Shown piece by piece: positions 12,106 through 62,170 of a stretch of 64,000 nucleotides of DNA. How positions within the stretch are numbered: position 1 is the stretch's first letter; each line of letters starts with the position of its first letter. The stretch covers positions 868,001 to 932,000 of the forward strand of contig JAAVVG010000007.1 of NCBI GenBank assembly GCA_012976225.1, in the 5' to 3' direction. The notes under the pieces are model-generated. The model had not been told where the DNA came from and did no database searches. It saw nothing but the letters and a program-made list of their open reading frames with translations. Position numbers and translations under genes: made by a program. The stretch comes from Golubevia sp. BC0850. Its lineage: Eukaryota; Basidiomycota; Exobasidiomycetes; Golubeviales; Golubeviaceae.

Positions 12106-13474
12106 ATGAACCAACTCCTTCCAGAAGTTCCATCTGGAATCTCTGGATATGCCTCCATCATCGATCTATGCCAGTTACTCTTCGTTTCGAGAAAATGGAA
12201 GTCGGCTCTCCATCATACCGCACCCTGGAAGCATCTCGAACTCTGCGCTAACGACCTCAAGCCAATGTTGAACAGGGGGGCAAGGAACCGATCTCGCTTC
12301 GGAAGGCCTATCTTGACGTGGGTCTTTGGAGTGGCTACGAAACGATCCAATTGCACTCTGGAATCTGTCAAGATGAGTTACTGTCGGAGCAACAGACGCT
12401 TCTTCACCTTTATCTCTCTATCCGGAGCAACTATCAAGTCTTTAAGTTTTTCATGATCTTTGAAGACGATCTAGAGAAACTTCCATTGGAACATAGACAT
12501 GGATTGTCTTTCTTCAGGAACACCTTCCCTTTACTCGAACATCTAAATCTCACTGGAAAGGAGTTGGATGAGGTAAAGCAGGCAACTCTGGGACGATTGA
12601 TCTCACTAGCTCTGACGGACCCGCCGATTTATCAACCGAGGATCTTAATTGGCTCTCCCATCTTCAACTTCTGTCCCTCAGCGATTGGTACTCTGATCAG
12701 GGTGTCCTCGTCGACATCTTGGAATGCTGCCACAACACGCTCGAAGACCTATCATTTCACTCTGGTAGCGAGACAGTGAACGATACACTGAACGATTACA
12801 GATTGTTGGATTTCCCCGAGCTAAGGAGTCTAAAGGTCAAAGTGACACCCAAACTCGATCACAGGATCGTTGCAATAAAGTCAGCTCCGAAGCTCACAAG
12901 CTTTCATGGAACTCCAGGAAATCTACTTTCATCGGATTTCGAGGATCTAGAGGAAGTCAAGCTAGAGGCCAGTTTCTACAGCTCCGACACCCCTCAACAG
13001 GCCAACCTGAAACTATCAGACATGATCTCCTCTCTTCAAAATCATGAGCTCACAATGAGAAAGGTGGAGCTTCTGGCTGATTACCAGTTGGTTGGTCACG
13101 GTACTTCAATCAAATCAATCGACCTTTTCCTTCCATATCTCTACGTCAATTTAGGTATGGAGGCCCACTTTCCAAACCTCTCTCAACTTACTATCGCGGA
13201 TGAGATCGTGTATGACAAGACTTTATTAGCATCAGTACTAACCTCAAGACGTATAGCTTCCATTTCTTCAAACTCGGTTTCAGACGAAGTAGGAGAGGGA
13301 AATTTGACTTGCGAGAGGATGACGATTTATCTAGAAGTTGAAGGAATTGAAGTATTTAGGTTGGAAGAAGAGAAAGTGCTGGCTAGACTTCCAGAAGGTC
13401 TGCAGACTATTGTTGGGAGAGCTGAAGTCGTAGAGGCGCAGCTTCCATCAGACGAGCCTCGAATCGAAGAATAG
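12106..13474 (+). pseudogene. F-box/LRR-like gene, copy A, frame-broken
   Basis: Begins with an F-box-like segment (LLPEVPSG, then LCQLLFVSRKWKSALHHTAPWKHLEL) and continues as leucine-rich repeats (FPLLEHLNLTGKELDEV, HLQLLSLSDW, CHNTLEDLSF). It ends with the family signature PNLSQLTI and LLASVLTSRRIAS. The reading frame changes twice. The first change, near 12438-12517, could be an 80-nt intron with a weak GTCTTT donor and a good TTCTTCAG acceptor, the acceptor being at the same place as a convincing intron in copy C. The second, near 12600, falls inside GRLISLAL/SSDGP, where copy B is uninterrupted and no intron fits, so it is a real frameshift. F-box proteins are SCF ubiquitin-ligase adaptors. 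This copy is probably dead or much shortened. Confidence 0.6.
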
Positions 13475-13795
13475 AAGAGCTACGATTTAGGAGGCAGTCG
13501 GATGGGGGAAAGAAAACATGCCGACAGTAGAGACTTACACCTCTCAGTGATTTCTGACCCGTTGCTCTTTTTAATCCATGTTTATGAGTACATTTAATCT
13601 AGAGAAGAATTTGATATTTATGAAAGGAAAGTCGAGTGTGGACCGAGCAAAGTTGCTCAGAGCTGCATCGATGTCTTTAGGACAGAGGAACTCTTACCTG
13701 ACAGTGATCGTTCTTTTGAATAACAGCTTGATGAATTCACCATTGGAATCTCAACAAAGAAGGGAAGCAACAGAAAAGCATCAAACTCGCTTCCC
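13475..13795. other. Convergent intergenic region
   Basis: Space between copy A and the minus-strand Fmp46-like gene. A 78-codon open frame at 13578-13814 overlaps the neighbouring stop and resembles nothing. No feature called. Confidence 0.5.
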
Positions 13796-14365
13796 TCACA
13801 TCACCGCACAATAAGACCCATCCTGACTCTTTCCTCCAAAATTTCTTTCCTCCTTGACGTTCTTCAACAACTCTTCCGTCCCTTTCAAAGTGTTAGCAGC
13901 TAGACCCGCATCCCAAAAGACTACGAGAGGGCCCTCTTGCAACTGTTCCTTGGAGATTTGATCGTTGGTGCCATTTGAGAGATAAGACATGATTGAAACC
14001 ATCTGATCGTTGGTGGGAGGAAATTTCTTGCGATCTAGTATCTCGAGATCTAGATTGGTAGAAAGAGGTGGAGAAGAAGCTTCTTTGAGATAAGCTGAAG
14101 ATGGAGAATCGTTTGCGATAGGTGCGGGTGAATCAGAAGAGGAAGGAGAAGAGGCGGATGATGATGATTGAGTTTGGGCTTGACGGAGTAACTTTAAGGC
14201 TTGAAGAGAGATCGTGGAAGTTGGATCATGACTGTGTGGGAAAGGAGAAAGTTTAGATAAGGATGAAGTGAGAGAGACTCTGAGACTCTGAGATGAGTAA
14301 CGAGACGGATAGTGAACTGACAAGATTGTTAGCAGAGCTGCTCCTTTATGAAATCTGATCGACAT
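13796..14365 (-). CDS. Fmp46-like mitochondrial thioredoxin-fold protein (DUF1687)
   Basis: Single exon, 189 residues. The N-terminus is basic and free of acidic residues for about 45 positions (MSIRFHKGAALLTILSVHYP), consistent with mitochondrial import. A Ser-rich stretch follows, then the conserved part: ILDRKKFPPTNDQMVSIMSYL, then GPLVVFWDAGLAANTLKGTE and a C-terminal helix. The pattern of a short helix followed by PxVVxWDxGxA is that of the Fmp46/DUF1687 family, described in yeast as a putative redox protein of mitochondria with a thioredoxin-like fold. No CxxC pair is present in this copy (its one Cys is near the end), so a thiol-redox role is doubtful. It lies back to back with the mitochondrial ribosomal gene, 170 bp between starts. 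Confidence 0.6.
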   Translation of the reverse strand: MSIRFHKGAALLTILSVHYPSRYSSQSLRVSLTSSLSKLSPFPHSHDPTSTISLQALKLLRQAQTQSSSSASSPSSSDSPAPIANDSPSSAYLKEASSPPLSTNLDLEILDRKKFPPTNDQMVSIMSYLSNGTNDQISKEQLQEGPLVVFWDAGLAANTLKGTEELLKNVKEERNFGGKSQDGSYCAVM

Positions 14366-14535
14366 TTTAAGCTATTCTCAATTAGGAAATGGGAAAAGAG
14401 ATGAATCAGACAGGATCGCAGTAGAGTGGCAAAAGGGAGAGAGTGTTCGAGAGAGAAAAGCCACAAAGCCTTCCTCTTGACCCATCCTCACCTCAAAAAC
14501 CAAAACTCAATTAATTGAACAATCAATCCTCAAAT
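14366..14535. promoter_or_regulatory. Shared divergent promoter of two mitochondrial-protein genes
   Basis: Only 170 bp separate the start codons of the Fmp46-like gene (minus) and bL32m (plus). The stretch must carry both 5' UTRs and the regulatory sequence of both. No individual factor site is claimed. Confidence 0.4.
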
Positions 14536-15054
14536 ATGACATCTAAAATGATCACAACCATTTCAATTCTCAAAACGAATTCATACAAACTTTCCATTTC
14601 ATTCTCTCTTCCTCGAATCTTCTCATCAAATTCTTCCACTTCCTCTTCATTCCCACCTCTATCACTTGCCTATCCATCAACTTCTACAAATCAGCAACTT
14701 CACTATTCAGAACTGACTCAGTCAGAAACATCAGAACAGTCCGAGGGATCATTGTTGAACTGGGATGGGGTTTTGAATGCTGTTCCAAAGAAGAAAGTCA
14801 GTCATAGTAGGAAAAGCATGAGGAGTGCTAACAAAGGGTTGAAGAACCGAGTGGGTGAGTAGCCAATTATCAGATTGGGCTTGGAGTAGATGTAGAACGG
14901 AGGAAGATGGAGGAGGTGATGTAGGGTAGTAGCTGAAGATCGAGAAGAAGTGGGAACAGGAAGAGAGGAACACTCTTTCCTACTCCTTCCTCTGGATATT
15001 CCTGTAAAACATCGAGGGCAGTATCTGAATAGAATAATCATCTTTGGAGACTGA
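14536..15054 (+). CDS. MRPL32: Mitochondrial ribosomal protein bL32m, 3' end uncertain
   Basis: Exon 1 (14536-14854) gives an N-terminus rich in Ser, Lys and Thr that suits a mitochondrial presequence. It then gives WDGVLNAVPKKKVSHSRKS and MRSANKGLKNRV, the unmistakable bL32 core (AVPKKK.SxSRxxxR...KGLK). A consensus donor GTGAGT follows at 14855. bL32m normally continues with a zinc knuckle (CPxCG...HxxC), but no such coding is present downstream on this strand. The best phase-compatible second exon I can offer, about 14960-15054, reads GREEHSFLLLP and ends QYLNRIIIFGD with no cysteines. The 3' part is therefore tentative. The protein belongs to the large subunit of the mitoribosome; in yeast its presequence is removed by the m-AAA protease. 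Confidence 0.65.
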
Positions 15055-15179
15055 GGTCTGGAGCAACTCGAGAGGGAGGGAAGGAGTTGGAAGCTTTGTC
15101 ACAGCTCTCCATCTTCGATACTCCCTAGTTTTCGGTCTCATGGATGCGAAGTTTTCATTCTTAGATGGCCTTGGAATCA

Positions 15180-15660
15180 GATTAGTAAATCTCTTACACT
15201 TTCCGGACGGAAATTAGAGCTGAGGGAGTTCTCAAATGGAGCTAGCTACCTTCCCTGATCTCTGCTCTGCAGTACTGTATCTCACTTTCCGCGAATGGAA
15301 GGACAAAGAAGCTTTCTACAAGTGTATCAGCTGTATCCCCACTCTCGCCTCGCCTCTTCCAATTCAGAAGCTAGCTCCATCAAGTATCACTCCTTTGCTT
15401 ACCTTCTCACCCTCCTCACCTTCTTCCTCTCCCAGACTTCGCCCATTGTCCAGGTTGTGGTTCCCCAAAACTCTCACATCATATCTGTGCAGTTTGTTTT
15501 GGTGAAATCGAAAAGAGACAGAAAGCTGAAAGTAGATTTGGAACCTCTTCTCAACTTCCTCGAGTTTAAGAAATGTGGTTCATCAAAAAATTACAAGTCT
15601 TTCGAAGTTACAGAACTCTGGTTCCCTTTGCGTTTCATTCTTTTCAACCAATCAGAATCT
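15180..15660 (+). pseudogene. Degraded remnant of the F-box/LRR family
   Basis: Not a gene now. Scattered segments in more than one frame resemble the LRR half of the neighbouring F-box copies: GRKLELREFSNGASYLP near 15207, LCSAVLYLTFREWKDKEAF near 15263 followed by a CISCIPTL segment (compare HLQLLSLSDW...CCHNTLEDL in copy A), and DLEPLLNFLEF...FEVTELWF near 15535 (compare the LLxYLE...LYI segment of all copies). Order and spacing match the family. Individually each match is weak. It lies about 600 bp upstream of copy B. Confidence 0.35.
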
Positions 15661-16262
15661 TCGTCTGTGCCGCTATGTTTGAAAGGGGAAGGGTGTGAGA
15701 GGTTTTTCGTTTGAGTCATAATTTGGTCTGTCGTCGCGATGAGGTGTGGCTTTCAAGCTTCTGCAGAGTTGGGCTCATTTCCCACTTGTTTTTTCTAAGG
15801 ATTCATGCTTCTAATCTTTTTCCTCGGTGTGGGTATAGAATGAGGAGGGGTGGTCCTGATACAGAAGACTCGCCTCCCCTCTTCTTTTCTTCTGCGCTAA
15901 AAGGCTGATGATCTCTCTATCTCTGCGAATGGCCTTCAACTTCGTTTGCCTCGGATACTCCTTCAGTTTCTTCTTTCAAGAGGTCTCGTCATTATCTCCA
16001 GAAGAAGTCGTTTCTGACGCTAAAAACTAAATCATGCTATAGCACTTCCTAACCACTCGCTCTATCGTTTCATCTTCGTCGTCTGTTGGTGATATCCTAT
16101 CGTTTAGATCACCTTTTGGTTACTCCACTGGTATGCCATCAATTTACATCAGAGTTCTTGATCATTGCAGCGTCCATGATTCATCTGACTTCTTTCTTTT
16201 CTTTCCTTTCTCTTTCGCTTTCAGCAACCTCGAACTCTCTAAAGCCCCGACGTCTCTCGAAT
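15661..16262. other. Intergenic region between F-box relics
   Basis: No gene supported. A pyrimidine-rich stretch at 16190-16230 (TTTCTTTTCTTTCCTTTCTC) precedes copy B and may be its old promoter or leader. Confidence 0.5.
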
Positions 16263-17551
16263 ATGGTCGAAATACCCGAGCAAGTACTCCCACTCATACT
16301 CAAGAAACTGCCTACTCTCGATCTAGGTCAAATGATGCTTGTCTCACGACAAATTCACGACACGTTGTCCAGCACCACGGCTCTTTGGAGGAATGTCAGC
16401 GTTTAAGAGTGGACGAAAAAGGACAGATGCGAATCCATCATTCAAGCAGCTTCTGAGAATTACAATCACACTTTGGAAGCAGTCGACATTCCTCACTATT
16501 TCTATGGGCCGACAGCATTTCGGATCTTAAGCTTGCTAAAGCTTTCGAAAGCATCCCTCAAAAGCATCGACATCGGCATCGAGCTGGATCTGACTCGAAT
16601 CGTATCTGAAGGACTACTGGATGACGGATTCTCTTCTTTAGAGGGTTCTCTCAACTAGAAGTCCTAAATCTATCGGGTGAGAAGTTGCCAGAGGTGATCC
16701 CGCTCATCCCAGGTCGACTGAGTTCCCTTGCGATCTCATCTCTTCCAGAACTCTCAAAGGATGACCTAGAATTGCTTTCTCATATTCAGTTCCTATCTTT
16801 CTCTGAAGACGAGAGGCAGGATGGTCCAGCGATGCTCGATGTCTTGGAGTCGTGCAGTTCAACTCTAAAGGAGCTCTGGCTCTTCGACGTGGAAGCTGAG
16901 GATAGAATCGTCTCTGTCACAGCTTTGAAGACCATGAGAGTTAGGAACTTGGGGGAGGACAATTCAGCTTGACTCACCACGATTCAGGCGCCGAATCTGA
17001 AGGAGCTCATCGGAACTACACAGGTTCACCTCACGATGACATTTCAGAACTTGGAGTCTCTCAAGATCAAAGTTCTTCGAGGCGATGACTTCTACACTTT
17101 TTAAGAGGACTTGGCGTCGGACTTGGTGGAGGTGGTCCGACGCCAAAGCTCAACTGTGAAACAAATTCAACTCCCATCCGAAGAACTTCCATCAAGTATT
17201 GGTCCAGTTGACGCCCTTCTTCAATATCTAGAAGCTGATTCAGGCACGGAAATCAAGTGTCCTAATCTCTCTCAATCCTATATTGGCGAAGCACAATACT
17301 ACAGTCAGAAGCTCTAAGCACAGGTCTTGCTTTCACGTCGTCTAGCTTCAACTCTCTCGATTTCTATTCTAGGTCAAGAACAAGAAGCTCCGTATCCTTC
17401 TACAGGGATTACTCTCTTCTTAGATGATAGAGAGATACCTGAATTTAAGTCTCATGAAGAGGAGATCTTAAATCAAAGTCTAGCCTTGGTTCGGGAGATT
17501 GGTGGGACGGCTGAGGTGAAAAAATTAAAGGAATGGGCGTCTCTTGATTGA
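16263..17551 (+). pseudogene. F-box/LRR-like gene, copy B, with in-frame stops
   Basis: Starts MVEIPEQVLPLILKKLPTLD and continues LGQMMLVSRQIHDTLSST and ALWRNVSV, a clean F-box. The same frame then meets TAA (16404-16406) but goes on coding family sequence (ENYNHTLEAVDIPHYFYG, LSKASLKSIDIG). Near 16640 the frame shifts to one reading QLEVLNLSGEKLPEV and GRLSSLAISSLPELS. This frame carries three more stops (TGA 16970-16972, TAA 17102-17104, TAA 17315-17317), yet family sequence resumes after each one, ending AQVLLSRRLAST and an acidic tail. Four stops and one frameshift make it a pseudogene. The conserved text between stops shows that the loss is not old. Confidence 0.75.
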
Positions 17552-17755
17552 GTTTATACTCTACAACTTTCCGACCCTTAACATTTGAATTCCCATTTTT
17601 TTCTCGCTCAAAGCTCCAGCTGTTTACTTCTCTCTCCAGAAGAAACAAAATCAACTGTAACACGTTCATAATTACAAGGCATCTTCTGTTCAATGAAAAT
17701 TGATCTAAGTGAAACGACTTCAACGTCTGTGCGGTAAGAGGTCTTTCATGACCAG

Positions 17756-20475
17756 CTATTCCTTTCCTTCAACCCACCTGCACACATGATCGACCAATCC
17801 TCTCCAGCTTTGACTCAGATCTACTTTCTTCTCTTGTTTTCCGTTCCTTCTTGCTTCTACTACGCTATTTCCCATTCCTACTTCGACTTTCTCCTCTTCC
17901 TGAACCTTCCCGAATTGCCAAACAGCTGTCAATCTGACTCGACTCTTCGAATCTTCGTCCTTCGATTCTATCGTCTCCTCTAGCTCAAAATCGACGATCA
18001 AGAACGGAGTATAGCTGGATCGTTGAGATCGAGGGTGCCGCCCCCCTTCTTGAGACTTCGAGTCGAATTCTTCATTTCTTGAATCTTCAGCTTCTTTCAG
18101 TTCTTTGATTCTCTTCCGTCTCGCTGACCTAGTCCAACTCTCACTGTAAAGCGAGAATCTCCATTTTTGTTTTGAGTTGTGGTTTGTACTCGCACTCGAA
18201 GACGAGACTTTCGAGTCGTGAATAGAGTTCAAAGCGTTGAGAAATTTGGAGACGACAGTTTCGTATCCTGGTTTATCAGCTGCCGAGTTACTCTCTTGGT
18301 GAGTAGACTCATGAGCTGCAGTAATTTCTGTGGATTTACTAGCCTTGCTAAGATCGAGGACTCTGATTGTTCGGGTGGAGGGGGGAATGAGGTTCGAGAG
18401 AGAAGAGGTCGATGGTCTGGCGAGCTTCTGAGAGGTTGAAGTTGGAATGAGAAAAGCAATCAGTAGATTGAAAAGGGAGGAGCAGAAGAAACGAGACGGT
18501 GGAAAGCAAAAGCAAGAACGAGCTCCAGAACCAAGAGCTGACTTACATCTTCAAGTCTCCACCCCTTGAAACTCCAAGCTACCGCCCATCTCTTGGTCTG
18601 ACCCTGAACCAGCTCTGTGATAGCATAGTTATCGATCTGTTGAATCATGAATTGGGCGAAGACAAAATGAGAGAACGGTCAGAGAAGGGAAAGGCGATGC
18701 TAGAAGTCGAATGTCGACGTCGTGCTGTCGGTCGCTCGCACTCAATTACTCACCCCGATGGCCTTGATCTTCTGAACAACCTCGACCAAGCTAGATAGCT
18801 TGCCCACCATACTCGTGAACCAAAGTACTCTCTCCTTCAACTCGGGTGTCAGAGACTCCTGAATCATTCTATCTATGAATTGGACCTCACCTCCTGGAGT
18901 GATTAGTTCTGAGTTTGAGGCGAGACAGATCTGTTTTGGGGGAGATAAAATAGGGGAGATATCAGATCGGGGCAAAACTGGCAAAGGATTAAAGAAGAAT
19001 TGACATGAGGATGGAAGATCAAGAGTCTTACGAGATCTGACCAAAGACTCACGCCTCTAGGGTCCAGAACTTTGTTCTCTCTACCCTTTTGAACCTCTGC
19101 TTCTGACTCGAAGAAGGGAGGGTTGCACATTGTGAAGTGGTAGAGTAAATCGCCTGAATCTTCCTCAGAGATCTCTGGAAAGTGATTGGGTTCTAGAATT
19201 GGCATCAAAGGATCACTTTCGGTCCTGTGAAGAAGCATAATCTTTTCTCTGAGATTGAGAGGAGCTTTGAGTTTGGAATGTTCACTTTGCGGCTCGGTGG
19301 AAGATGAACTGTCTGCCTTTGAAGTCGTGGATGAAAGACCAGGCACGTTGGAATCTAAGATCGACTGAGAATTCTTGATAGATTCCAGATCGATATCTGT
19401 TCCTGTAAAAGTCCAGTTTGGACGTAGAGCGCATCCTAGAAGGGGATAGATCGCAGAAGCTCCCGTTCCACTGTGAGGTGTCGGAAGCGTCAGTCACAGC
19501 TGATTCCTCAAAAGCTACTCAGGACCACTCAGCAGGAAGTTACTCACATGTCTAGACCTTTAATATTTTGAACATTGTTCTGATCGATTGTCCAAGGTGA
19601 GGTGGAGCGTTCCGAACCAGACAACTTTCGCTTTTTCGAGGGTCGATCGATTTCCTGGGACAACATCGGGTTGGCTGCATCCTTTGATAGGCTCTTTGTA
19701 GAATCGGAAGCTATTTTTTGTTCGTTTTCTAGACTTGGAAGCGTCGAGTCCAAAAGATCTTGAATCCATAAAAGATAGTTCAAACTGGGAAAGCCATTGG
19801 GAAGAAGTAAACAGAAGAGTCTCTGTTACTACGATGCAACATTTTCCGCTTTGCTTCTAGAATTGTAGATTGACTCACCGGTTAGGTATCTGAAGAAAGT
19901 CAGGGAAAGAATGGGGCGTCAAGTCATCGCTCTTAGGCGAATGTGATCGACTTGATGGAGACTCACAGCTGGTACCAATCGATCTTCCTTCAAGGCAGCT
20001 TTGATAGAGAAGTCATGAAGGAGTAAAGTTTCTGTCAAACATCTGTAGAGCCGCAATTCAAGGGGAAAGTGGGAGTTAGAATGCATTCTCTGTGTTCGAC
20101 TCGAGGGAGACGGAGCAGCATTTGACGGACCTTGAGGCTTCTGCGTCCTGGAAATCTATAGCTGGCCTTCCCTTTGAGTCGTTTATGACACTGTCAATGG
20201 GAGCAAAGATAGAAGGGTCAGTCTTGAGAGTGTCAGAGAGGGGACGGAAGTCATTGGAGAAGAGAAGAGAAGAAAGACTGACTGTTTGCCAAAAGTGTCC
20301 GGGTAGAGTTGTGCTAAATGTTGGAAGTTAGGCTGTCGGTCTTTGTACGGATTCCTTGCTGGGAATGCCAACGAAAGACAAGAAGAAGAGAAGGAATGAA
20401 GGTAGAGAGACGAGGGTGAGTAGATTGAGGATGGAGGAAGCTGGAGCCCGATTGAATATCTAACTGACGATGCAT
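17756..20475 (-). CDS. METTL16: METTL16-type U6 snRNA N6-adenosine methyltransferase
   Basis: Ten coding exons on the minus strand: 20475-20469, 20358-20283, 20190-20131, 20042-19967, 19889-19879, 19784-19548, 19470-19053, 18930-18754, 18636-18547, 18427-17756; 607 residues. Phases close exactly. The protein begins MHPRNPYKDRQPNF (human MHARNRYKDKPPDF) and carries IPNRLNYLLWIQDLL, the SAM motif DIGTGASAIYPLLG, the catalytic NPPF in FTMCNPPFFES, GGEVQFIDRMI, WFTSMVGK, and TELVQGQTKRWAVAWSF. These are the METTL16 landmarks in order. The family methylates A43 of U6 snRNA and, in animals, MAT2A hairpins, in the nucleus. The last 220 residues are charged and less conserved. Exon 1 contributes only ATGCATC and exon 5 is 11 nt; both are required by frame and alignment. 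Divergent from the Syp1-like gene. Confidence 0.92.
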
Positions 20476-20751
20476 TCAAATGAGTGAACTGAAAGTAGAG
20501 ATATTGTCTCAGAATAAAAAAGAGAAAATGTAGAGGAGGGCAGAAAAAGAGATGGGAGGAGAGAAGATCGCACAACAGCAGAGCCGATCGCCATGATCTT
20601 AGAGGAGTTGGAGCTTGGATTGCAAGCCTCCTCTTGAATACCATACCACCTTTTCTTCTTTCTACCAATTCCTCGGACTAATCTGGCAGGCTCAATTCTA
20701 GGAAGAAGAAGCTCTCATCCGAAAACACTCATCATTCATTCAGCGATCAGG

Positions 20752-34611: not shown

Positions 34612-36591
<1,980 letters not shown>

Positions 36592-45276: not shown

Positions 45277-46697
45277 TCAAAGAGCCCATTCTCCCTCGAC
45301 ATTCTCCCAATGCTCCAACTCTTCCCCTTCAGCTCTTCCGGCAGCTTTTCTGACCCACTCTGGCTGTTCAGCCAGCGCCTCTTCTTCCTTCCTCTTAAAT
45401 TCTTCGATCTGATCCGATGCGATGTAAAGAGCTAATTTGGAGCATTCGTAGTAGTTCCCCACCTCTTCGCCAGTCACCGAGAAGAATTGACCTTGAGAAG
45501 CCAACCGTCTTGAGATTAAAACTTGAGCTAGAAGCTCATGGCTATAGACCTGTCCTCTGTCGAGATAGAGTTGAGTGAGGACATTTAGCACCTTTGGACA
45601 GTTTGACCTTGAGGTAGTGAAGAAGAGGATCGATGGAGAAGGCTTGGCCGGGCTCGTCGACTAGAAGAAGCCGTCTTAAGTTGTTGCATGCCCGTATTGC
45701 GTTAACCAAACAGTCTGCATCGGAGTACCTTCTAGGTTCGGTCCATGAGTCGGGTGGTTCCGTGTAGGTTCCCAACTTGAGAGTCTGCATCCTCGGGTTG
45801 AAGGAAGGAAAGTTCTCCACTAATTGGTAAGGGTAGCCTGAGAACGCAGAGAGAGCGGGAGCTTCCGTTGACATCTCCCCCTCTTCTGGACGATCGTAAC
45901 CACCTTCAAGAGAATAGCTGAGAGTTCTGAGTGCAGGTAGATAGAGCTCCGGGATATCAGGTTTCATGTAACAATCGACTAGAAGATGAACAAGGCTTGT
46001 GCTACAGGCCAACAAGGGTCGGTAGAAGCCTTAACGAGCCCTGTGACCCTGATTGAAGAAATAGAAGATTTGGAGGTTTGAGACAAATTCAAGGTCTGCA
46101 GCTGTCCAAGTTCCGATAGGTCCCTCTATCCCAAACACCGCGAGTTTTCCTGACTTGCTCCGTTCCGCCTCCGGGAGAGCTCGGGTTGAGAGATTCAGTC
46201 GGACCAGGATGGGGAAGTTCCTGAAGAAAGAAATGGGATTGATAGAAGAGTAGTCATGATGACGTAAACCGCAGCCCACTCTTGTGAGTGAGGCTTTCTT
46301 TCGAGAGTCCAACCAGAGAACAGAATCTGATTCTTTCCACTTCTCCAGGGAAGGTGATTGATTGAATTGAATGGCTTGTGCGGACAAGGTTTGCTCCTAG
46401 GGCTTCGAAGAAACGAATCTCGTTGTTTCTTGACATGTTTTCAAATCCTTTCCTTGGCAAGATTTTCACATCCTTCCATCTCGATTCATCGGACAGAAGA
46501 GAGTTCCATGTTCGACTGACTCGCATAATCCTAGCCATCTCGTCTTGATTGGTGACACTGTTGACCACCATGAAGAGCGTCTCTGCTGTTAGCGAAGACA
46601 CCTCTATGCGGAGGACAGGATAGACTGTAAGGGTTGGGCGAGCGGAGAAGGTTGAGTTAGAGGTAACGTAGTAACGGAGAGAAGTTCTATGACTCAC
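45277..46697 (-). pseudogene. F-box/LRR-like gene, copy C, broken
   Basis: On the minus strand. The F-box reads LTAETLFMVVNSVTNQDEMA then IMRVSRTWNSLLSDESRWKDV. An intron at 46269-46221 (49 nt, GTTTAC...TTCTTCAG) joins KSGLR to NFPILVRLNLS with good phase, showing the family's ancestral gene structure. The frame then meets TAA at 46033-46031 inside an LRR segment and continues as LLACSTSLVHLLVDC and LPALRTLSYSLEGGY. Near 45580 the conserved KCPNLxxLYI motif is out of frame: KCP in one frame, LTQLYLDRGQVYSHELLAQ in another. A loss of about five bases explains it. The C-terminal AQVLISRRLASQ and an acidic tail are intact. One stop and one frameshift, otherwise well kept. Confidence 0.7.
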
Positions 46698-46929
46698 TAT
46701 CTACTTTCTGACCGAGGCTGTGTGCTGTAATTGAAGGAAGGAAGACGATGAGAGAAGACTCAAAGAACAAGTTGCAATCAAATCTTGCGATGAGCGAACC
46801 AAGCCCCAAGAGAATACGCGTCCACCAACATCTTGAGGCCTTAAACGATCGAGTCCCCTCTTCTAGACCATCAACTGCTCTTTCCCTTTGATCTCTTTCC
46901 TTCAAGAAGAGGCAGTCTCCTCGCGGTGG

Positions 46930-48020
46930 AGAAACCTTCCAAAGAGTCAATCACCCCTTCTGTCGTTCCAATGGTGCTCGCATCTAAAGGTCCTTCACTT
47001 CTATGCTGGTAAAGACGCAGAAAAATCCTCCAAAATGTTCCAAATCTTGGAGTTCTATAGTTCAGCTCTGATGGAGCTTACACTGGATTGTAAAATAGGA
47101 GGAACCGGATCCATCAATCTGCCGAACCTTCACACTCTTCAACTGTTTTCCGGGTCAGCTCTGGTCGCAGATTTCGGATCCTTTGAGACTCCTTATCTCA
47201 AGAAAGTGGTGACCAGCTCGAGAAATCTGGCAGAGCTTCCTGTCTTCTCTAACGTGGAAAGCCTGGGTAAGTGAGCGAGTGAGCGTGACTATCAACTCTT
47301 ACTGACGCTCTACGCCAACAGGTTCGTGTAACTCAGTTGAACACTGACAATTGCTTGATCCCCCTCCCCCCCCCACCTCCTCGTTCCTACTCTAAGGAAT
47401 CATCCTTCAGATCTACGAGGACCCGAACTATGAATACCAAGGCCATTGGGACGGAGGACCTCCAAACGTAATACTTGAGCAGGAAGAACAGCTTGTGAAG
47501 GTAATTGAGCGCTACGCTCATACTTCAACTCAGTTTCAGCTCTTAGAGGCAGGCCCAGGCCTGGGAATCCTTTCAAGCAGTCGCCTTCTCCGTTACCTGG
47601 ATCCAGATTCCTCCGGGACCAAATGTCGATATCTTCCATAATTGAGCGCTACGCTCATACTTCAACTCAGTTTCAGCTCTTAGAGGCAGGCCCAGGCCTG
47701 GGAATCCTTTCAAGCAGTCGCCTTCTCCGTTACCTGGATCCAGATTCCTCCGGGACCAAATGTCGATATCTTTCTAGACTTTTCGTGGGGGTAGAGTCCG
47801 GCTTGTTCGATCTGGGTATTCTGGCTCAAACTCTTCTATAACAGAAGCTGGGAACAAAGAGCATGTCTGTTCAAGCCTGACACTCTTTCTGAAAGAGGAT
47901 TAAATGGAGAAATTTAGACAAGAAGAGGAGAAATCACTAGCTGAAAGTCCTGAGTGGATGGGAAGAATCGGAGGAAAAGTCGAGGTTAAGGAGTGGAAAG
48001 AGGCTCCTAGGGACGAGTAG
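46930..48020 (+). pseudogene. F-box/LRR-like gene, copy D, 5'-truncated and internally duplicated
   Basis: Lacks the F-box half. The family begins at about LLSFQWCSHLKVLHFYAG and FYSSALMELTLDC, then LPNLHTLQLFSGSALV. A good intron follows NVESL (GTAAGT at 47272), rejoining at GIILQIYEDPNYEYQG. The C-terminal LLRYLDPDSSGTKCRYL segment is present twice because of a perfect 134-bp duplication (47502-47635 and 47639-47772). After the second copy come LFDLGILAQTLL, a stop, and an acidic tail (EEEKSLAESPEWMGRIGGK). It lies head to head with copy C, about 230 bp between the family-like ends. Confidence 0.65.
47502..47772 (+). repeat. Perfect 134-bp direct duplication, period 137 bp
   Basis: The segment 47502-47635 recurs without a mismatch at 47639-47772. 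The two units are separated by three bases (CCA). Both begin TAATTGAGCGCTACGCTCAT and end GTCGATATCTT. The period is not a multiple of three, so the duplication shifts the frame of the F-box relic that contains it. Identity over the full unit points to a very recent event or an assembly artefact. Confidence 0.92.
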
Positions 48021-52303: not shown

Positions 52304-52494
52304 AGAGAGGGCTCTTTGAGAAAGAGGAGTTGAAGGTGTTATTCAATTTGTATCATTAGTTCAGAAATTCATTCGTGATTCGACTCATGAAATGGAGGTT
52401 GGTTTCAGTTCTTCACGCTGCGCTTCAGCGCTTCAGCAGCTTCGCAGTTTCATCTTTGTTCATCACTCCACCGCTTCTTTGGTTCATAACAAAC

Positions 52495-53717
52495 ATGCCA
52501 GCCTCAAACCAACCTGCTTCAACAGAATCTAACTTCAGAGATCAATTGTCTGGGTTCCGATGGGCCAGAGGCTCAACTAATGATTCAACTAGGAGTACAA
52601 CGACTAATCCGGCAGGTCAAGGAAGTTACTTATCGACCATCTCGAATTCTATTAGTGGATATGTTCCGCTCAGGAGTGCTGAGAGGACAAATGAGGAGGA
52701 AGCTTATTTGAGTCTGAGTAGATGGGAGAGGTGAGTTTGGAAAAGATGAGAAAGATTGGAGAGAAAGAGAGAGATAGGCTGGAGGAAGGAGGAGCTGGTG
52801 CTGTGAGCTCAGAGGTGGGAGTCGGACAGTCAGGAGTCACTAGGGATGTCGTGTTCGATCTGCACGATTCGAATCAGTCGTTTTTGAGAGTTCAGAGCTA
52901 GAGAGCAGAGGACAGTAGCGAGAAGCTACATTCCACGACTCTTCCGCTGCACTTCAGATCCGAGATCTCCCAGTGTGATGGATTGCATCCTCTGTTGAAG
53001 ATACTAAGAAAGCTTTCAACTGCATCCAAACATCTCAGATGGCTTGGAATCTAACTTTCTTTCTTCTGCCCCTCTATCAGGTTCCTCGGATTCTTAGCCT
53101 GTCTAGCAGGTTCAGCAATCCTCTTCTTCTTCTCTTTCATCTTTCTCAATCCTCTTCTTCTAGCTACAAGGCCCCATAAATTTGCTCTTAGCTTCAGTCT
53201 CGCGAGTTTGCTGTTCATGGTCGGGTGAGTGATCCTTCCTCCTTCGTCTCTTGAAGGCTGAACAAAAGTACTAACCTAACGATGTTCCCCTGAAATCGGC
53301 TTTCTCAAATCACAGATTCTCCGTTCTTTCAGGACCTATAGCTCATACCAAACACATGTTTTCTCCTGCACGATTGCCCTTCTCTTTGACGTGAGTTCGC
53401 TTCTTCCAAAGCTTTCTCACACGTTCGACTTTTGACTTTCGAGTTTCCTTCCGATTCCGTCTCGTCCTAAGACTGATTTTTCTCTTTCTCGATTGTTCTC
53501 CTTTTGACTTGCGTTCTCCAGATACCTCTCCTCTCTAGCTCTAACTCTCTACTTCGCTTTGGGTCCAAGGTGGCTGCTACCAACTCTGATAGCTGCAGTG
53601 GTTCAGGTGTGCGCTCTTCTAGCTTATCTAGCCGCTTATTTCCCAGGTGGAACTACCACTTTGAGGTATGGAGCTAGTATGGCTGCTAGAGGCGGAGCGG
53701 CTCTGCTTCCGTTTTGA
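52495..53717 (+). CDS. SFT2: Sft2-type vesicle transport protein
   Basis: Exons 52495-52730, 53081-53224, 53316-53390, 53522-53717; 216 residues, the normal size. Four hydrophobic spans follow an N-terminal cytosolic tail: LACLAGSAILFFFSFIFLNP, FALSFSLASLLFMVGFSVLS, YLSSLALTLYFALGPRWLLP, and ALLAYLAAYFPGGTTTLRYG. The motifs RWERFLGFLACL, GPIAHTKHMFSPARLPFSLT and FPGGTTTLRYGASM are Sft2/Got1 family marks. Sft2 is a Golgi membrane protein that acts with Got1 in fusion of endosome-derived vesicles with the late Golgi. The start at 52495 is chosen because MPASNQPAS begins a reasonable tail and the upstream codons look like leader. Confidence 0.9.
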
Positions 53718-54952
53718 GAGATTCTCACATTGGACTGTATGATTGTATAGTACAGCTTGCTTCCTGCCCTGAAATCTTTCTGCGTATGAGACAGCTTACA
53801 ATCTCCTTTGCTCTATGGCCTATTTTCAGCACCTGACTGGGCAATATCACTTGACAAAGAAAAGCAAATGAGCGTTCCCACTTGAGCTTCTATTGAAGGC
53901 GACTGAGCAGAGCGAGAATACTAAACCAGGATCAAACTTTGTGATCGATTGCCTTCGATTGCCCGGAGTTGTGCTTTACTGCGATGCCTCATACTCCATC
54001 AGTCCATCGCCAATTCGCAACGAACAAGTCAAATTGTCAAAGCTCAGAAATGGACAGAGAGAAATTTTGAATTTCTCAGCGAGAAGTAAAAGAACATGCT
54101 AGATTTTTTATTGTAAAAGTACAGAGGATGAATGTGTAGGAGCCAGAACGGGAATGTGGGAACAGAGGGGGGGAAAGTTGAGGTGGGAAAAAGACAAATC
54201 TGTCTCTCGAAAGAGAAGGACAGAAATGAGAAAGAAAGAGGAGAGTGATGTTGAGCTTTATTTTCATGCAAATGATCATATAGAGAGATGGGGATGGGGT
54301 ATGTTTGGAGAAAAGGGGAGCGGAAGAGGATTTGAAGATCTTGTTTCAAACCGATTTCGAGAGGTAGGAGGTAGTAGTATCTTTTAATCAGAATCGATGA
54401 GATCAGTCTTCGAATTAATCAGCAGAAAACCTTAAGCTCTTTCTTCAAGGATAAAGGAAAACCTTGAATTTCAGAAATCCATTGTTGATCAGAATTAATA
54501 CGTTTGCTTGTCGTTGAAGATAAAGAGCTTTGAGATGTCTAGGTTCTGATTTTCCTTCCCACCCTCTGACTGACTCTGCTAGGAGCTCGTCTGATTCCAT
54601 TTCCCATCTAAGACTTGCGGCAGAGCATTCTTAATTCTGGAACTACTGAGAGAACGCAAGGTCGAAAGTTCGAATTGATGCTTGAGCTTGCCTGAAAGTC
54701 GTTTTGGAATGTTTTGAAGTTTGGAAAAGGTTTTGAAGCTTTTGATTTTAAGTTGCGGAAGAGAGGAAGAAGAGGAGGTGGGGAGAGGTGAAAGGAAGAA
54801 AACTGTTTGGGTAATTGTGCTCGATTGAAAGATTTGACGTTTTTGCTTTTTTTGTTTGAATAAGGAATTAGAGAATTGATAGGTAGGAATTGGAGGATTA
54901 AAGAGGAGATATTTCAAAAAGAAAGCTTCGACTCCAGAGTCGAAAAGTCAAA
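53718..54952. other. Long convergent intergenic region
   Basis: About 1.2 kb between the stops of SFT2 and TBP. A purine-rich plus-strand stretch (54150-54260) creates long spurious frames. On the minus strand, about 54750-54579 reads LKIKSFKTFSKLQNIPKRLS and ends LPQVLDGKWNQTSS. It looks coding-like but has no start, partner exon or family. No gene is called. Confidence 0.45.
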
Positions 54953-56331
54953 TCAGTTCTTTCTGTATTCTGACAATACAGGGAAGATTAAGTTGAATGC
55001 TTGATAGATCTCTTCACGGACCTTTCCAGAAGGAGAAGAGAAAAGAAGGCGAGGGTTGGCGATTTGTCCAGGAAGAGGGAGGGCGAGATGCGAACGGGAA
55101 TCGACGACACTTACCTTAGCACCAGTTAAAACGATCTTTCCAGAAACAAAGATCAGCAAAACGACCTTTGGCTTGACCATACGATAGATGAGACCTGGGA
55201 AGAGCTGAGAGAGGGTCGGAGGGATGGTGTTCAGTCCATCGAGACAAGACAAGGGAGGAACTACGAGCAAGCCTTTGATCGACGAGAACAGCGTGCGCGA
55301 TGCTCACCTCTGGTTCGTAAGATGAGAACTGGGAATGTTGATTAGCAGCAAGTCCTTCCAAACGAATGGGGAACTTGACATCGCATCTGTTTAGAGGCGA
55401 TGGTGAAGGAGGAGCAAATGAGCACGATGACGGTGAACAGGAAGGAAAGAGCGTCGATCCGACTCACGATCCAACAATGTTTTGAATCTTGAACTCGCTG
55501 AAATGAGCCTCGAAACCCAACTTCTGGATGATACGAGCGTATTTACGAGAAGCGAGACGTGAGTCATCTTCACTTCTAGCTCCAGTGACGACCATCTTTC
55601 CAGAAGCAAAGATCAAGGCGGTGGTCTTTGGTTCACGAATACGCATGATGACAGCGGCGAAACGCTGTAAAGGAGAAAGGAAAGAAGGTGAAAAAGAACT
55701 AAACTGTTTAGTGATCTTGTTTCTTCAAACGCTACGCGCTTCCCAACTCGTGGCGTGGTGGTGGATCAGATGAAAAGATATGCACCTTTGGATTGTACTC
55801 TGCATTACGAGCATGTAGAGCGATCGTTTTTAGATCGAGACGAACTTCCAAATTGACGGTTGCGACAATGTTTCTTTTGGAAGAAAAGAAGGTGTGAAGG
55901 AGAGACTGTCAGTGAACCGTGGCTCAGTCGATGGGATGGTCGGAGGTGGATGCTCATCGTTCCCTCCCGTTTCTACGATTCTGAATGAAACATTTTGATA
56001 TTGGTGATTGATAGACTTGTTTTACATTGATTTGCGCACATTGAGACGGCATCTGGAAGAATGACAGCACATCACCCACTTCCTCCCCCCCCCCTTTTCC
56101 CTCCCCAGCCATGTGTTATACTTACTGTAGTGTAGGTACGATACCATTTACGGTGGTCAATCCAGCAGCCAAACTAGCTTGATCATTCTTCTCATTTCCA
56201 ACCACTGCACTGTTAGTTGAATCCTTTTCCTTTCCATTACCGATTCCATTACTGTTGTTTGCTGCTGCTACTCCATTCACGTTGGCTTGCAAAGTGTTGG
56301 ATTGACCTGGAAGAGCGAAACTAGTTGACAT
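54953..56331 (-). CDS. SPT15: TATA-binding protein
   Basis: Six exons on the minus strand, 56331-56126, 55873-55786, 55664-55468, 55387-55309, 55204-55115, 55021-54953; 242 residues. A variable Asn/Gly-rich N-terminal tail of about 65 residues is followed by the saddle: [117 protein letters not shown]. The two direct repeats of the TBP core are both complete. It nucleates pre-initiation complexes for RNA polymerases I, II and III. The intron after exon 2 opens with GTGCAT, a weak donor forced by phase. Divergent from COQ8 across 375 bp. Confidence 0.96.
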
Positions 56332-56706
56332 GGTTTTGGATTGGATTAGATTGGTTGAATGGATTGGAATTGAAAGTTAAGGATTGACTAGAAAGTGGGT
56401 TGTTGGAAAAAGAAGGTAATTTGGCTGAGAAGAGAAAAGGAATTGGATGGTCAAGAGAAAGGAGCAAACACTCGAGTTCGCTTCTTATAGGAGCTCAGGG
56501 GCCTTATCCTTAACACCTAGAAATATCCTTCTTTTTGATGACCAAATGAATTTAAATACGGTTTGAATCATCAGAAGCAAGAGAAAGTACCTCCAAGAGT
56601 GGGGAAGCGATGTGTAGCAAGACTTTTGGATCGAGTGAGCCTCTACTGCTGCTTCACCTCTAACCCTCACCTCTCTTCAACGAACTTGGTCATTCTCGCC
56701 TAGGAA
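56332..56706. other. Divergent intergenic region between TBP and COQ8
   Basis: Shared upstream region. No motif claimed. Confidence 0.4.
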
Positions 56707-59648
56707 ATGCTCAGAGCTCTCTCTGATGCAGCTGTCGTTCTATCCTCAGCTGCTAGCGTAGCAAAGAGAGCTGTCCTCATTCAAGCTGAGTCGAGTCTAT
56801 CAGCTTCTTCCTCAACCTCTTCTGCTCCACCATCTAGACATTCAGCTTCATGGCCATCAAGACCTCAGTCTCGGCCGCAAGAGCCAGCAGAGCGACAGGT
56901 TCCTCACTCAGTTGGGCCCATTTTGAATGGAAGTCCTGTCGAGAAGCAGTTCGAGGGTGTTTCACCAGATGCAGACGAGGTGAGTGAGGTCAGCACCAGA
57001 AGAGAAGGTTCGCAGCTTTGGGGTTCAAGATCATGAAGGAAATGAGGTTCTGAAGAAGAAAAGATATGTGATCTGTATGTGATCTGCACTTGATAGGCAT
57101 AGATTGCTGCAAGGAGGCATCCAATCAGCTCAGCTCAAGCTGACCTCACTTCATCTTCCTTGCTCTTTCAGCTCAATTCCGGACCACTCCTTTCATCAGA
57201 GAACTCTTCTCCTGAACCTCCGAAGCCGTGGCCAACTCAGCGAGTCTCAGCCCAGCCTTCGACCTCGACAGCTACTTCCACTTCCAGCCCTCCTCCACCG
57301 CAATCTCAATCCCCTTCGAACCAGCCTGACTTCTCTTTGCCGCCGATAGCTCCCGATGGAACTCCAACCGAAATGAAGGTCATCTCATCTGGCAGAAATC
57401 AAGTTCAACAAGAGGACTGCTCATCAAGAAAAGAAGGCTCAGCTCGATCCATTGAAGAAATTCAAGAATCCCTGAAAGCTTTGGATCAAAGCCTCGGAGC
57501 TTACTTTGGAGAACCCGAGACTGTCGAGAAGAAGACTCCGGATCAAGAGAATTTGGAGATCCAGAGAAAGGAGAAATCAATTCTAAGCCAGGATGAACCT
57601 CGACCTCCAGTCGCTGAGCAAGATTCAATCAGCCTTGACTCTTCTTCAACAACAACATCTGAGCATACTACCTGGAATCCAATACCTCAAGCTTCGTCTA
57701 CCAATCCATCTACTACTGAATCAGAGAAGGAATCTCCTTCGAAAGCCTCTTCTCAGGACCAAAGCAACTCTTCAACTTCACCCACTGAAGCTCAGATCAA
57801 AGTCGAGGAAGCGGTTAAGATCGAGAAACGAAGAGAGATGGAAGCGGAAAGGGCTGCAACTGAATCGGATCTACAACAAGAACAAGCGAAAGGAGAAGTC
57901 ATGGAGGAAGAAGAATACGACGCAGCAACTGAAGTCAGATCTACACCTCTCAGACCCGCCAAGGTTCCATCCTCACGTCTTGGTAGACTCTTTCACTACG
58001 GATCTCTAGGAGCAGGTCTTGCATGGGGAGCAGCTGGAGAAATGGCTAGAGGTGGGGGAGGAAAGCAAGGAGTCTTCATGTCGGAATCTAACGTCAAGAG
58101 ATTGGTCGATAAGCTTAGCACGATGAGAGGAGCAGCTTTGAAATTAGGACAGTTCATGTCAATTCAAGATTCAAACCTTCTTCCAGAACAGATAGAGCAA
58201 GTTCTACTACGAGTTCAAAATTCAGCTAATTACATGCCTGCTTGGCAGATGGAGAAAGTCATGAACGAAGATTTAGGTCCGGATTGGAGAGAATCTTTCG
58301 AATCTTTTCAGGACGTTCCTTTTGCCTCTGCTTCGATCGGTCAAGTTCATTCAGCTGTTCTCTCCAAGAGCCATTCTTCAAATCTAGCTGGAAAGAGAGT
58401 TGCTGTCAAAGTTCAATTTCCTGGAGTGAGAGAATCTATCGTCTCTGATCTTTCGAATCTCAAATGGTTGCTGTCTGCGTCTGCTATTCTTCCCAAAGGT
58501 CTCTTTTTGGAGAATACTATCAAGGTTATGAGTAGAGAATTAGACGACGAATGTGACTACGAAAGAGAAGCTGAGATGGGAGCTAAGTTCTACGAATTGT
58601 TGAAAGATTCAAAAGAATTTGCAGTTCCTGAAGTGGTGAAAGAACTCTGTGGAAAGAGAGTTCTGACGACTGAGATGATGAGAGGTAGACCTCTGACTCA
58701 GGCGAAAAGGTTTGGTCAGGAGAAGAGAAATCAAGTGAGTCCTTGAGCTTTTGTTCCGTGCTTCCTCGGTTGTAAATTGATCGCAGCCTTTCTCTACTCT
58801 CTCACAGATCGCACATTCAATCCTTCTTCTCTCCCTCCGAGAACTCTTCACATTCCGTCTAATGCAAACTGACCCCAACTGGACCAACTTCCTCTTTAAC
58901 GAAAAGACCGGAAAGATCGAGTTGATCGATTTCGGTGCTACCAGAGAATATGACAAGGAGTTCATCGACGACTGGCTGAGGCTGTTGAGAGCTGCTGTTG
59001 AAGGAAGGAGAGATGATTGCAGAGACTGGAGTAGGAAAGTTGGATATCTCACTGGAGACGAATCCGAGGTGAGTCTTGAATCTAATTCTTCAAAGATGGA
59101 CACCGAGGTTCGCTGAACTTTTGTTCCCCTTTCTTCGACCGCCCTCCTCCCCAACCTCAAAGGCAATGCTCAACGCTCATCTAGACAGTATGATCGCTCT
59201 AGGAGAACCTTTCCGGTCGGATTCGCCTTCGCCTTACCCTTTCAAGAATCAAACCATCACAGCTCGAGTCAAGGCTCAAATCCCCCTTATGCTCAAGGAA
59301 CGATTGACTCCACCTCCATCTGAAACTTACTCGTTGAACAGAAAGTTGAGCGGGGCTTTCCTTCTTTGCGCTCGATTAGAGGCTGAGGTCAAGTGTAAGG
59401 AGATGCTACAGACCGTGGCTGGAGACTACAAGTTTGGGGAGGAAGGCAAAGAGGCGGTCGGAGATTCAATCCCAAGTGCTGGTGGTCTGAAAAGCTCTAG
59501 TGGGAATGGATTCGGAAGCGATAGGAGAGAAATTCACACTTCTAGAATCTTGAGGGAAATCGAGAATCTAAAGAAGGAGAAGACAGAGTCGAAGAAGAAA
59601 TCAATTTACAGACGTGAGCAACAAATAGATTCGACCCAAACCATGTAA
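56707..59648 (+). CDS. COQ8: Coq8/ADCK3-type atypical kinase of coenzyme Q biosynthesis
   Basis: Exons 56707-56979, 57172-58734, 58808-59068, 59163-59648; 860 residues. The Coq8 core starts near residue 340: RLGRLFHYGSLGAGLAWGAA, the KxGQ helix in GAALKLGQFMS, the Ala-rich loop variant FASASIGQVHSA, VAVKVQFPGV, the DDECDYEREA acidic motif, TDPNWTNFLF and IDFGATREY (DFG). These are UbiB-family hallmarks. Coq8 is a matrix ATPase, peripheral to the inner membrane, that supports the CoQ synthome. The first about 340 residues are a Ser/Pro/Glu-rich stretch much longer than in yeast (whole Coq8 about 500), after a short start MLRALSDAAVVLSSAASVAKRA that could target mitochondria. A GTGAGC donor at 59614 could instead splice the last exon onto the next gene. 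Confidence 0.92.
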
Positions 59649-59740
59649 TTCTAAACCAAATTCAAACGCTGAAATCCAAAATCAAACTTCTCTCATTTCT
59701 CTCCCGTCCACTCTTTCTGCAATGTGAATCTTTTCATCAG

Positions 59741-60414
59741 CGAGTGTGGATCTTCAATCTCGATATCGACACTCAGAATATGAGAGTTCTCCTACATCTC
59801 TGAGTCAAATCTTAACATCTTTACCTCAGGAGTCTACGTCTTCCACCTACGACACAATCTCGACCAGCGCGGTTTCCTCGTCGATTTCTTCAACGCCTTC
59901 CGATTCGAACCAGCCAAATCCTTCTTCTATCGAAGCTAGAAGGGTCGAACAAACTCCAGCTGAAAAGAAAAGCAGAGCTAGCGATCCTTTGACCGCTATT
60001 CCAGAGGAACAAAACGCAAGTGGAAAGTGGATTAGAGGAGTCTTCGTCGAGAAGAGGCCACCTCCTCCTGGACCTGAAGATTGCTGTATGTCAGGATGCG
60101 CCCACTGTGTCTATGACATTTATGCTGAAGATTTTGTCTCATACAAGCAAAGTCTTAAGCAGTCTAAAGAGAAACTTCTATCCCTTGTTCCAGCTATTGA
60201 TCCTTCGGACTGGGACGTGTGCCTGTTGGGTCAGATGACTTCTTCTGCTGATGTTGATAGAGATGAAGGAGATGGCAAGGATGAGGCCCGGAGAGAAAGA
60301 GATACAGCGGAAAAAGAAATCAAGGAATTGGAGGAAGGATTGGATCCTGTTATGAAGGGCTTCTTGGCAATGGAGAGGAAAATGAAGAAGAAGGAAAGAG
60401 AGAAGCAGAAATGA
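59741..60414 (+). CDS. Oxidoreductase-like domain protein (OXLD1-like), 5' end unresolved
   Basis: An open frame from the acceptor CATCAG (59735-59740) to a stop at 60412-60414. The conserved part reads WIRGVFVEKRPPPPGPEDCC then MSGCAHCVYDIYAEDFVSY, the Pfam oxidoreductase-like N-terminal motif (PPPPxPxxCCxxGCxxCVxDxY) found in human OXLD1 and yeast YPL107W, mitochondrial proteins of unknown activity. The region before it is Ser/Thr-rich; the region after is a charged helix ending in a Lys/Arg/Glu repeat. There is no in-frame ATG upstream of the motif and a stop lies just before the acceptor, so the first exon is elsewhere. The one phase-compatible donor I see is inside the COQ8 last exon (59614), which would make a fused protein. 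Confidence 0.7.
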
Positions 60415-60829
60415 AAGGGAAAAGTGTCGTAGGAACCTAGGATTTGAAGGATAGAACATGACTGTCTAGTACTTTGGCACATATCAAAAATTATTTCATT
60501 CTGTTTGTATGTCGAGAGGAGGGGAGCCTTCTCCTTCTCAAATTGGGAGTTTCAAGGATGTCGACAGAGACAGGCATACTACTACAGATCCCCTCAAAAC
60601 AGAAAAGGCAACAGATTTCCACTTTGTTTCCAAACCACCCCATGAGATTCATTGTTCTATATCTTGACCCTGATTATCCCTAATTTAATCCCCTTCTAAC
60701 CTTTTCCCGAAGATCCAACCGTTTTGACGTGTTGACGTAAATCTTCGGTGGCCCATAACCTGCAATCTCTAATCAATGACAGATCCAGAGCCAGAACGAG
60801 AACCTGAACTTGAACTAGAATCAGAGTCA

Positions 60830-62170
60830 ATGGACCCGCGAAAAAACATCTCATTCCTTCCAGCCTTTCTTCTTGTCTGTTCTGAGCATTTAGCCAATAG
60901 TTAACCTTCAGCTTCATGGAAATCTGCTGCGTCTCTCGCGTCAAGATGAAGATGAAGATTCAGTGTCTCGCAATCCTCGTTTCCTTCCTTCGATTATAAC
61001 CGTCGACCCAGTAAAACCTCCGCTAGTAAATCTTGGCTGAAGTTGATCTCCTCTTGGATGTAAAGTTTCTTCGGCTCTGGATAAGGAACTCCTAGAACTG
61101 ACACGGCTAGGCTAACTTGTAAGAAACGCAGAAAGTGATCTAGAGAGAGGTTTACATTCTGGCCATTTTCTGAAGAGAATTCTAACCCCTCTAAAATAGA
61201 CTCATGACACTCGATTAAAGCATGAATAGATGTTAGGGAACCCAGAGTGTCGAAGTGATAATCTTCATGTTCTAAGTCTGATAAACATAATTGAAGGGAG
61301 TCTAATCTCTTGAAAGGGAGCTTGAACTTTGACAAGACAGCCGAACTTGCAGTAATCGATTTAAGTTTGGGAGCGTCGACTGAGGAACCCGCATTAGCAT
61401 ACATCCAAGAGCCTTTGATTGTGAGATGCCTGAGTTTCAGCAGCCTAAGTTCGGACTGAGCTAGCATACTCAGATCGAATGCTCCATGGATAGCTAAACT
61501 TTCTAAGGATCCAGCGGACCTTATGATAATTCTTGACAGCTGGTTTATGTCTGCTTGCTTCGAAGTCGAAGACACCGAGACGTCTAACGTCTTCAACTTA
61601 GAAACCATTCTAGCGATATTCCTGATGGAAAACCTAAGTCCGATGCTGCAAAATGAGAGAGCAAACCTGGTATGTTAGAAGACTTGCTACTGGAGCCTCT
61701 TCGAACGACTGGATAATCTGCTCCCTTTAGACACAATGCTTGTAGCTTTGGACAGCTTTTAAAGAATAAAAAAGCACATGAATCACCGAACATTGGCTTG
61801 GACGGATCGATCATTCTAAAGTCTGAAACGACCTTTAAAAGAGTGGCCTTTGATGGTTCTAGCAGCTTTAATAACTCCACAACTTCGAAGTCTTCCAACG
61901 GTGTAAATCTGATTGGAAGATCTCTAGAGTTGCATTGGAACGACGGTTGAACACTTGGATGATTTGACAGACTTGTGGAAAGGAGAACTCCTACAGAAGC
62001 TCAACATTTCTCCAAAGGTTTGCGGATGCTGAAAGCAGCTTGTTCCAAGATTGGCAGGCAAGTAGGATTGAAGCCAAGTCTAGAGTTGGAAGGCGATAGA
62101 ATATCCTGATCAGAACTTCTTAAGGAAGTCTTGACATCTGGAAGAATCGATGCTTCTCGCATCGTACTAG
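60830..62170 (-). pseudogene. F-box/LRR-like gene, copy E, broken
   Basis: On the minus strand. The F-box is in one frame (EVLIRIFYRLPTLDLASILL then ACQSWNKLLSASANLWRNVE), followed at once by a stop. LRR-like text then continues in other frames: EDFEVVELLKLLEPSKATLL and LFFKSCPKLQALCLKG, a frame change near 61650, then RLDSLQLCLSDLEHED and ESLAIHGAFDLSM. The C-terminal signature PEPKKLYIQEEINF and LLAEVLLGRRL is followed by TAA, yet family-like acidic tail text goes on in the same frame (DAADFHEAEG, second stop, then an RRKAG segment). At least three stops and one frameshift. It lies back to back with ALKBH6. Confidence 0.65.

Follow-up and report, generated by a model that had tools for sequence, protein, structure and literature searches.

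Decay of an F-box/LRR-like gene subfamily in the basidiomycete Golubevia sp. BC0850, probably after a joint release from selection

Introduction

F-box families in plants undergo genomic drift and contain many pseudogenes (Hua et al., 2011; PMC3030570), and in nematodes F-box proteins act as antidotes in selfish toxin-antidote elements (PMC12680543). Among fungi, a table row of one study gives 3-43 proteins with the PF00646 F-box domain in ten species (PMC4469406), and another study counts 11-17 F-box proteins in two yeasts, a smut and a rust and larger numbers elsewhere, with Laccaria bicolor highest (PMC7991009). Here, we analyze a 64,000-nucleotide window of the Golubevia sp. BC0850 genome (GenBank assembly GCA_012976225.1; 25,771,031 bases in 64 contigs) that holds five broken copies of one F-box/LRR-like subfamily (LRR, leucine-rich repeat). 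The window spans positions 868001-932000 of contig JAAVVG010000007.1, referred to below as C62, and window coordinates are the C62 position minus 868,000.

A decaying F-box family is of a known kind, given the plant and nematode cases; the apparent synchrony of the decay is the new part. The present case shares with the plant FBX superfamily a large lineage-specific expansion and frameshifted or stopped loci beside a conserved minority. In the plant account (PMC3030570), however, pseudogene number tracks family size across species, whereas here none of 32 usable pieces is intact, one age fits, and the genome is small (25.8 Mb). Like the nematode families (PMC12680543), these genes are fast-evolving, clustered and species-specific and resemble SKP2-like solenoids; unlike the nematode antidotes, they come with no evidence of drive, and a toxin partner beside the window copies was not searched for. 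The other fungal F-box sets (PMC4469406 and PMC7991009) have in common with ours the domain, a role as adaptors of Skp1-cullin-F-box (SCF) ubiquitin ligases and, in some members, LRRs. The Golubevia genome yields at least 148 F-box motif matches, dead copies included, against the 3-43 and 11-17 proteins cited above. A literature search, with most subscription journals outside its coverage, turned up no comparable dead F-box family in a fungus. We consider it probable that a once-working F-box/LRR-like subfamily was long kept by selection, was released together and is now decaying as pseudogenes.

Results

Copies were compared by a purpose-written frameshift-tolerant alignment of a protein profile to DNA, which tolerates stops in frame as well as shifts of 1, 2, 4 or 5 bases and can optionally place GT-AG introns. 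In a leave-one-out run, no copy contributed to the profile by which it was judged. Copy A (12106-13429, plus strand) is an F-box/LRR-like pseudogene that covers profile columns 1-440, with no stop and two frameshifts in the profile alignment or three in the leave-one-out run. Copy B (16263-17536, plus strand; columns 1-446) has four in-frame stops and one frameshift in both runs. Copy C (45301-46667, minus strand; columns 8-448) has one stop with two frameshifts in the profile alignment and four in the leave-one-out run, and copy E (60847-62137, minus strand; columns 1-440) has four stops and two frameshifts in both. Copy D (46902-48002, plus strand), the most decayed, begins at column 139 or 160, runs to 448, and carries two stops with six frameshifts in the profile alignment or five in the leave-one-out run; within it lies a local tandem duplication (47502-47772, plus strand) of two 134-base copies that are 100% identical and 137 bases apart. 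Leave-one-out scores are 638 for A, 904 for B, 630 for C, 573 for E and 237 for D. When the window was scanned in tiles from end to end, A-E alone exceeded a score of 75, and given 36 copies in the genome, finding five in 64 kb has a P of 4e-8. The preliminary description had counted six homologous broken copies. Five of these are homologous and all broken, and it is nearly certain that they are pseudogenes, but the sixth, a trace at 15200-15714 on the plus strand, scores 55, the level of 60 block-shuffled controls (mean 45, maximum 68), and its membership is not supported.

The damage extends to the whole subfamily. At least 38 pieces were found in the genome with introns disallowed, and the search for intact members returned none among the 32 pieces that score at least 250 over at least 180 matched codons; these hold 48 stops and 83 frameshifts in the leave-one-out run, with a frameshift in 30 of the 32. 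Outside this count stand copy D (seven lesions), C27:130951 (five lesions) and four fragments without any lesion (56, 57, 92 and 145 codons). Loci were found by genome searches with five protein queries and the best candidates were scored, so family sizes are lower bounds. Together with the window, 28 of 40 fetched regions were scanned; the remaining 12 contain other F-box genes, eight of which served as controls. Contig C17 (348 kb) bears 12 of the 38 pieces.

The aligner seldom calls lesions in intact genes. Among 60 intact relatives simulated at 34% identity, none received a stop call and five received a frameshift call, and three open sister genes (L058, L060 and L059) drew no lesion calls. 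Very distant open genes, with scores of at most 142, did draw false calls: one frameshift in L061 and, with introns allowed, two stops and two frameshifts in L066 and one frameshift in L069. Every piece in the main count scores above these distant controls.

Two artefacts could mimic such decay. Sequencing or assembly error would account for the broken frames if bases had been lost or gained in the assembly, and both frameshifts of copy A in the profile alignment do lie in or beside short single-base runs. However, indel errors do not make single-codon stops, and many of the lesions are such stops. In the same assembly, 2 of 150 WD40 motif matches contain a stop, sister F-box genes have open single frames of 380-551 codons, and the neighboring genes that we checked are open as well: a DAHP synthase (7reu) is covered in order by three open pieces (positions 12-108, 124-206 and 188-355), a COQ8 match runs unbroken to the end of its 528-amino-acid frame, and a muniscin domain is complete. 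A HIR1-like propeller gene is also among the window genes. The preliminary description had held that the single-copy neighbors are intact, which is true of those examined, and that poor sequence quality is an improbable cause; we likewise regard error as highly improbable. Introns taken for lesions are more improbable still. The neighbors are apparently intron-bearing, to judge from the DAHP synthase in three pieces, but a low intron price leaves none of the 24 copies tried (D not among them) free of lesions, and the sister genes are open without introns.

It had also been suggested that the copies may still work through short or recoded products. Stop readthrough, RNA editing or frameshifting could be the means. 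Columns 1-50 are lesion-free in 18 of the 25 pieces that reach the F-box, so that short F-box peptides are conceivable, and one member is broken by a single stop. Nevertheless, the stops (17 TAA, 12 TAG and 12 TGA) show no bias toward a single codon and fit plain mutation (P 0.64); a TAG excess, the expected trace of RNA editing, is not seen, and base editing could not cure the frameshifts found in 30 of 32 pieces. Lesions occur along the whole gene, no region of which is clearly spared (F-box: 8 observed, 12.9 expected, P 0.10; Kolmogorov-Smirnov P 0.13 for their spread), and the first lesion falls anywhere from column 6 to column 296. A candidate programmed frameshift site near column 170 was dropped: the shifts differ among copies, and two of the C17 copies owe theirs to common descent or exchange. 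Residual function of this kind thus seems very unlikely.

The lesion counts bear on whether the members died on one date or on many. The counts of the 32 pieces fit a Poisson with one rate (dispersion 28.4, 31 degrees of freedom). The log-likelihood is -65.3 for a common age and -80.6 for exponentially distributed ages, and the latter predict 6.5 intact pieces where none is observed. The same preference holds for stops alone (-47.4 vs -52.7) and for frameshifts alone (-60.9 vs -68.6). Birth-and-death would leave a mixture of living and dead members that differ in age; in the window subfamily there are no live members among the 32, and one age fits best. It is likely that the members were released from selection together.

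Ordinary continuous birth-and-death, or genomic drift, could yield the same picture if death times were random, no survivor remained by chance and the counts were evened out by loss of the most-decayed copies. Such drift, with many pseudogenes, is documented for plant F-box genes (PMC3030570), open and broken members coexist in the sister subfamily described below, and shared lesions indicate that dead copies have been duplicated or exchanged. Against it stand the absence of lesion-free pieces where exponential ages predict 6.5, and the deficit of pieces with zero lesions of one type (2 observed vs 9.2 expected for frameshifts; 8 vs 13.1 for stops). We judge drift a possible but rather unlikely explanation.

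Several observations weigh against a common date. Far-decayed copies easily escape detection, and their absence shortens the upper tail of the counts and favors the Poisson fit. The counts are also partly dependent, as some lesions are common by descent or conversion: C4:670224 shares lesions with C4:734864, and C17:155218 with C17:180230 and C17:164039. Frameshifts are falsely called at the simulated rate of five in 60 and in some real, very distant intact genes. Six of the 38 pieces lie outside the test, including the four lesion-free fragments, and the least damaged member, C62:977818, has one stop in 448 codons and nothing else. The sister subfamily is mostly broken too, so that zero intact among 32 falls at most a little beyond what it shows, and two estimates of the age differ nearly twofold (below). 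Because lost decayed copies and shared lesions both push toward a single pulse, the pulse is the best reading of the counts and no proof.

Before they died, the genes appear to have had a long life as working genes. Among 25 better copies, the closest relatives of A, C, D and E share 33-38% amino-acid identity with them. Copy B is nearer to its closest relative, C62:992155 (61% amino-acid identity over 375 codons; synonymous divergence, dS, 0.75; ratio of nonsynonymous to synonymous divergence, dN/dS, 0.42). Of the 45 closest pairs listed, 44 diverge most at the third codon position. If the B/C62:992155 pair had evolved neutrally since its split, 36.0 stops would be expected and five are observed; two further pairs hold six against 20.0 and six against 13.5. 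This marked shortage of stops in all three pairs, relative to neutral drift after the split, is why we argue for a long working phase. Over 23 pairs (proportion of synonymous differences below 0.62, at least 200 codons, the mosaic copy described below excluded), dN = 0.090 + 0.290 dS, with standard errors of 0.018 and 0.023 that are too small since pairs share copies. This line is what one would expect if a long period of function, at dN/dS near 0.29, gave way to neutral evolution amounting to about 0.063 per copy. Neutral evolution after the lesions finds indirect support, from pairs that share copies, in the intercept of 0.090 and in the mutation-like stop types. The density of stops over 25 copies gives a neutral time since death of 0.035 changes per site, and we estimate from the two approaches that death may date back about 0.035-0.063 neutral changes per site. 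The preliminary description had spoken of fast spread and fast death of the family. Fast spread does not agree with the low identity of four of the five window copies to their nearest relatives or with the stop-poor pairs; as for fast death, the loss is recent, but by lesion counts the members seem to have died at one time and not continuously.

There are signs of recombination among the dead copies. C17:155218-156667 (L047) is a mosaic whose ends are 94-100% identical to C17:164039 and two of whose inner blocks are 95-100% identical to C17:180230; it has one lesion in common with each, and the blocks are separated by some 500 columns at close to 40% identity. C4:670224 (L039) and C4:734864 (L038), 64 kb apart, have 98% amino-acid identity and share both frameshifts and deletions. 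The open frames that flank them are nearly identical too, and for this reason the whole segment was probably copied after death.

The sister subfamily (seed L065) offers a comparison within the same genome. It has at least 111 matches (105 of 389 candidates scored) that merge to about 100 loci; by hand count, 16 genes, including the query, have a stop-free open frame that spans at least 85% of the query. A sample of every eighth locus (n = 12) contained one full-length open gene, one lesion-free fragment and ten broken loci, with 30 lesions in all. Zero intact of 32 differs from 16 of 100 (Fisher P 0.0085) and not clearly from 1 of 12 (Fisher P 0.27), so the difference in survival is modest. 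Most sampled F-box loci of the genome are dead, and the window subfamily is the part in which no survivor was found. A stop lies within 13 of 148 F-box and 14 of 150 F-box-like motif matches, and the F-box fraction exceeds that of the WD40 motifs given above (Fisher P 0.003), the one other family compared, which does not share the decay. Loss of the partner Skp1 is not the reason for the release, because a Skp1 gene is still there, with a clear match above the cut-off at C11:1063996. A second, weak Skp1-like match lies at C8:477082. Three pairs of sister loci (C9:443767/468760, C4:419186/438365 and C7:432243/518381) have identical search statistics in opposite orientation, and in two of the three both members have the same stops, which suggests recent inverted segmental duplications.

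The domain identity of the window copies was partly as first described. An N-terminal F-box holds for A, B, C and E, which reach the first ten of the 448 profile columns, and not for D, which has lost that part. In Pfam scans of A, C and E (B had no separate scan), A (19.2 bits) and C (18.6 bits) fall below the PF00646 cut-off of 20.5 bits, while E lies above its Pfam cut-off with a stop inside the domain; the better-kept members L021 (33.0 bits) and L023 (21.5 bits) exceed the PF00646 cut-off. An LRR middle region, also claimed earlier, drew no match to Pfam LRR models in the pieces scanned, but a profile built from five intact sister proteins aligns with the F-box of SKP2 and, in FBXL5, FBXL3 and FBXL2, with their F-box and the sequence beyond it. 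Because the profile extends past the F-box into these FBXL proteins, where it enters their repeats, LRRs are likely, although the similarity is weak. The shared C-terminal signature is present in the alignment. A PDB search with the C-terminal profile of the window subfamily gave no match at E values up to 1, and an AlphaFold model of the copy A piece has a mean predicted local distance difference test score (pLDDT) of 45.

Discussion

The ancestors of these pseudogenes were very probably substrate receptors of SCF ubiquitin ligases, a role that the domain implies. Their N-terminal F-box is predicted to dock on Skp1, and the long repeat part would pick the protein for ubiquitination. Purifying selection, seen in the pairs tested, would have acted through most of the divergence of the subfamily. 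Selection on the whole subfamily would then have been lifted within a short span, an estimated 0.035-0.063 neutral changes per site ago, and stops, frameshifts, deletions, local duplications and mosaic exchanges would have gathered afterwards as in neutral DNA. For this sequence of events we draw on lesions observed in all pieces of usable length, on the one mosaic copy and, for the common date, on the lesion counts.

What these receptors acted upon is a matter for more tentative thought. The preliminary description had raised conflict, often seen behind F-box expansions, and conflict is a possible cause. The receptors could have formed an arsenal against parasites, or served as gene-drive antidotes, whose opponent vanished, with the subfamily and most of its sister released in one pulse. 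We consider this a doubtful proposal; if it were true, the genome would preserve traces from which the close of an arms race could be dated.

The dead loci carry a warning for annotation, as F-box counts in genomes of this kind take in many of them. More broadly, the usual view is that gene families shrink by random single losses. A joint release of some thirty mostly old and diverged genes, with none of usable length intact and all of an equal-looking lesion age, would amount to a natural loss-of-function experiment that can be dated. A sister species with an intact family would allow a direct comparison that bears on why some fungi expand their F-box genes. If the genes were indeed released together, whatever ended about 4-6% of neutral divergence ago would be what these SCF receptors were for.

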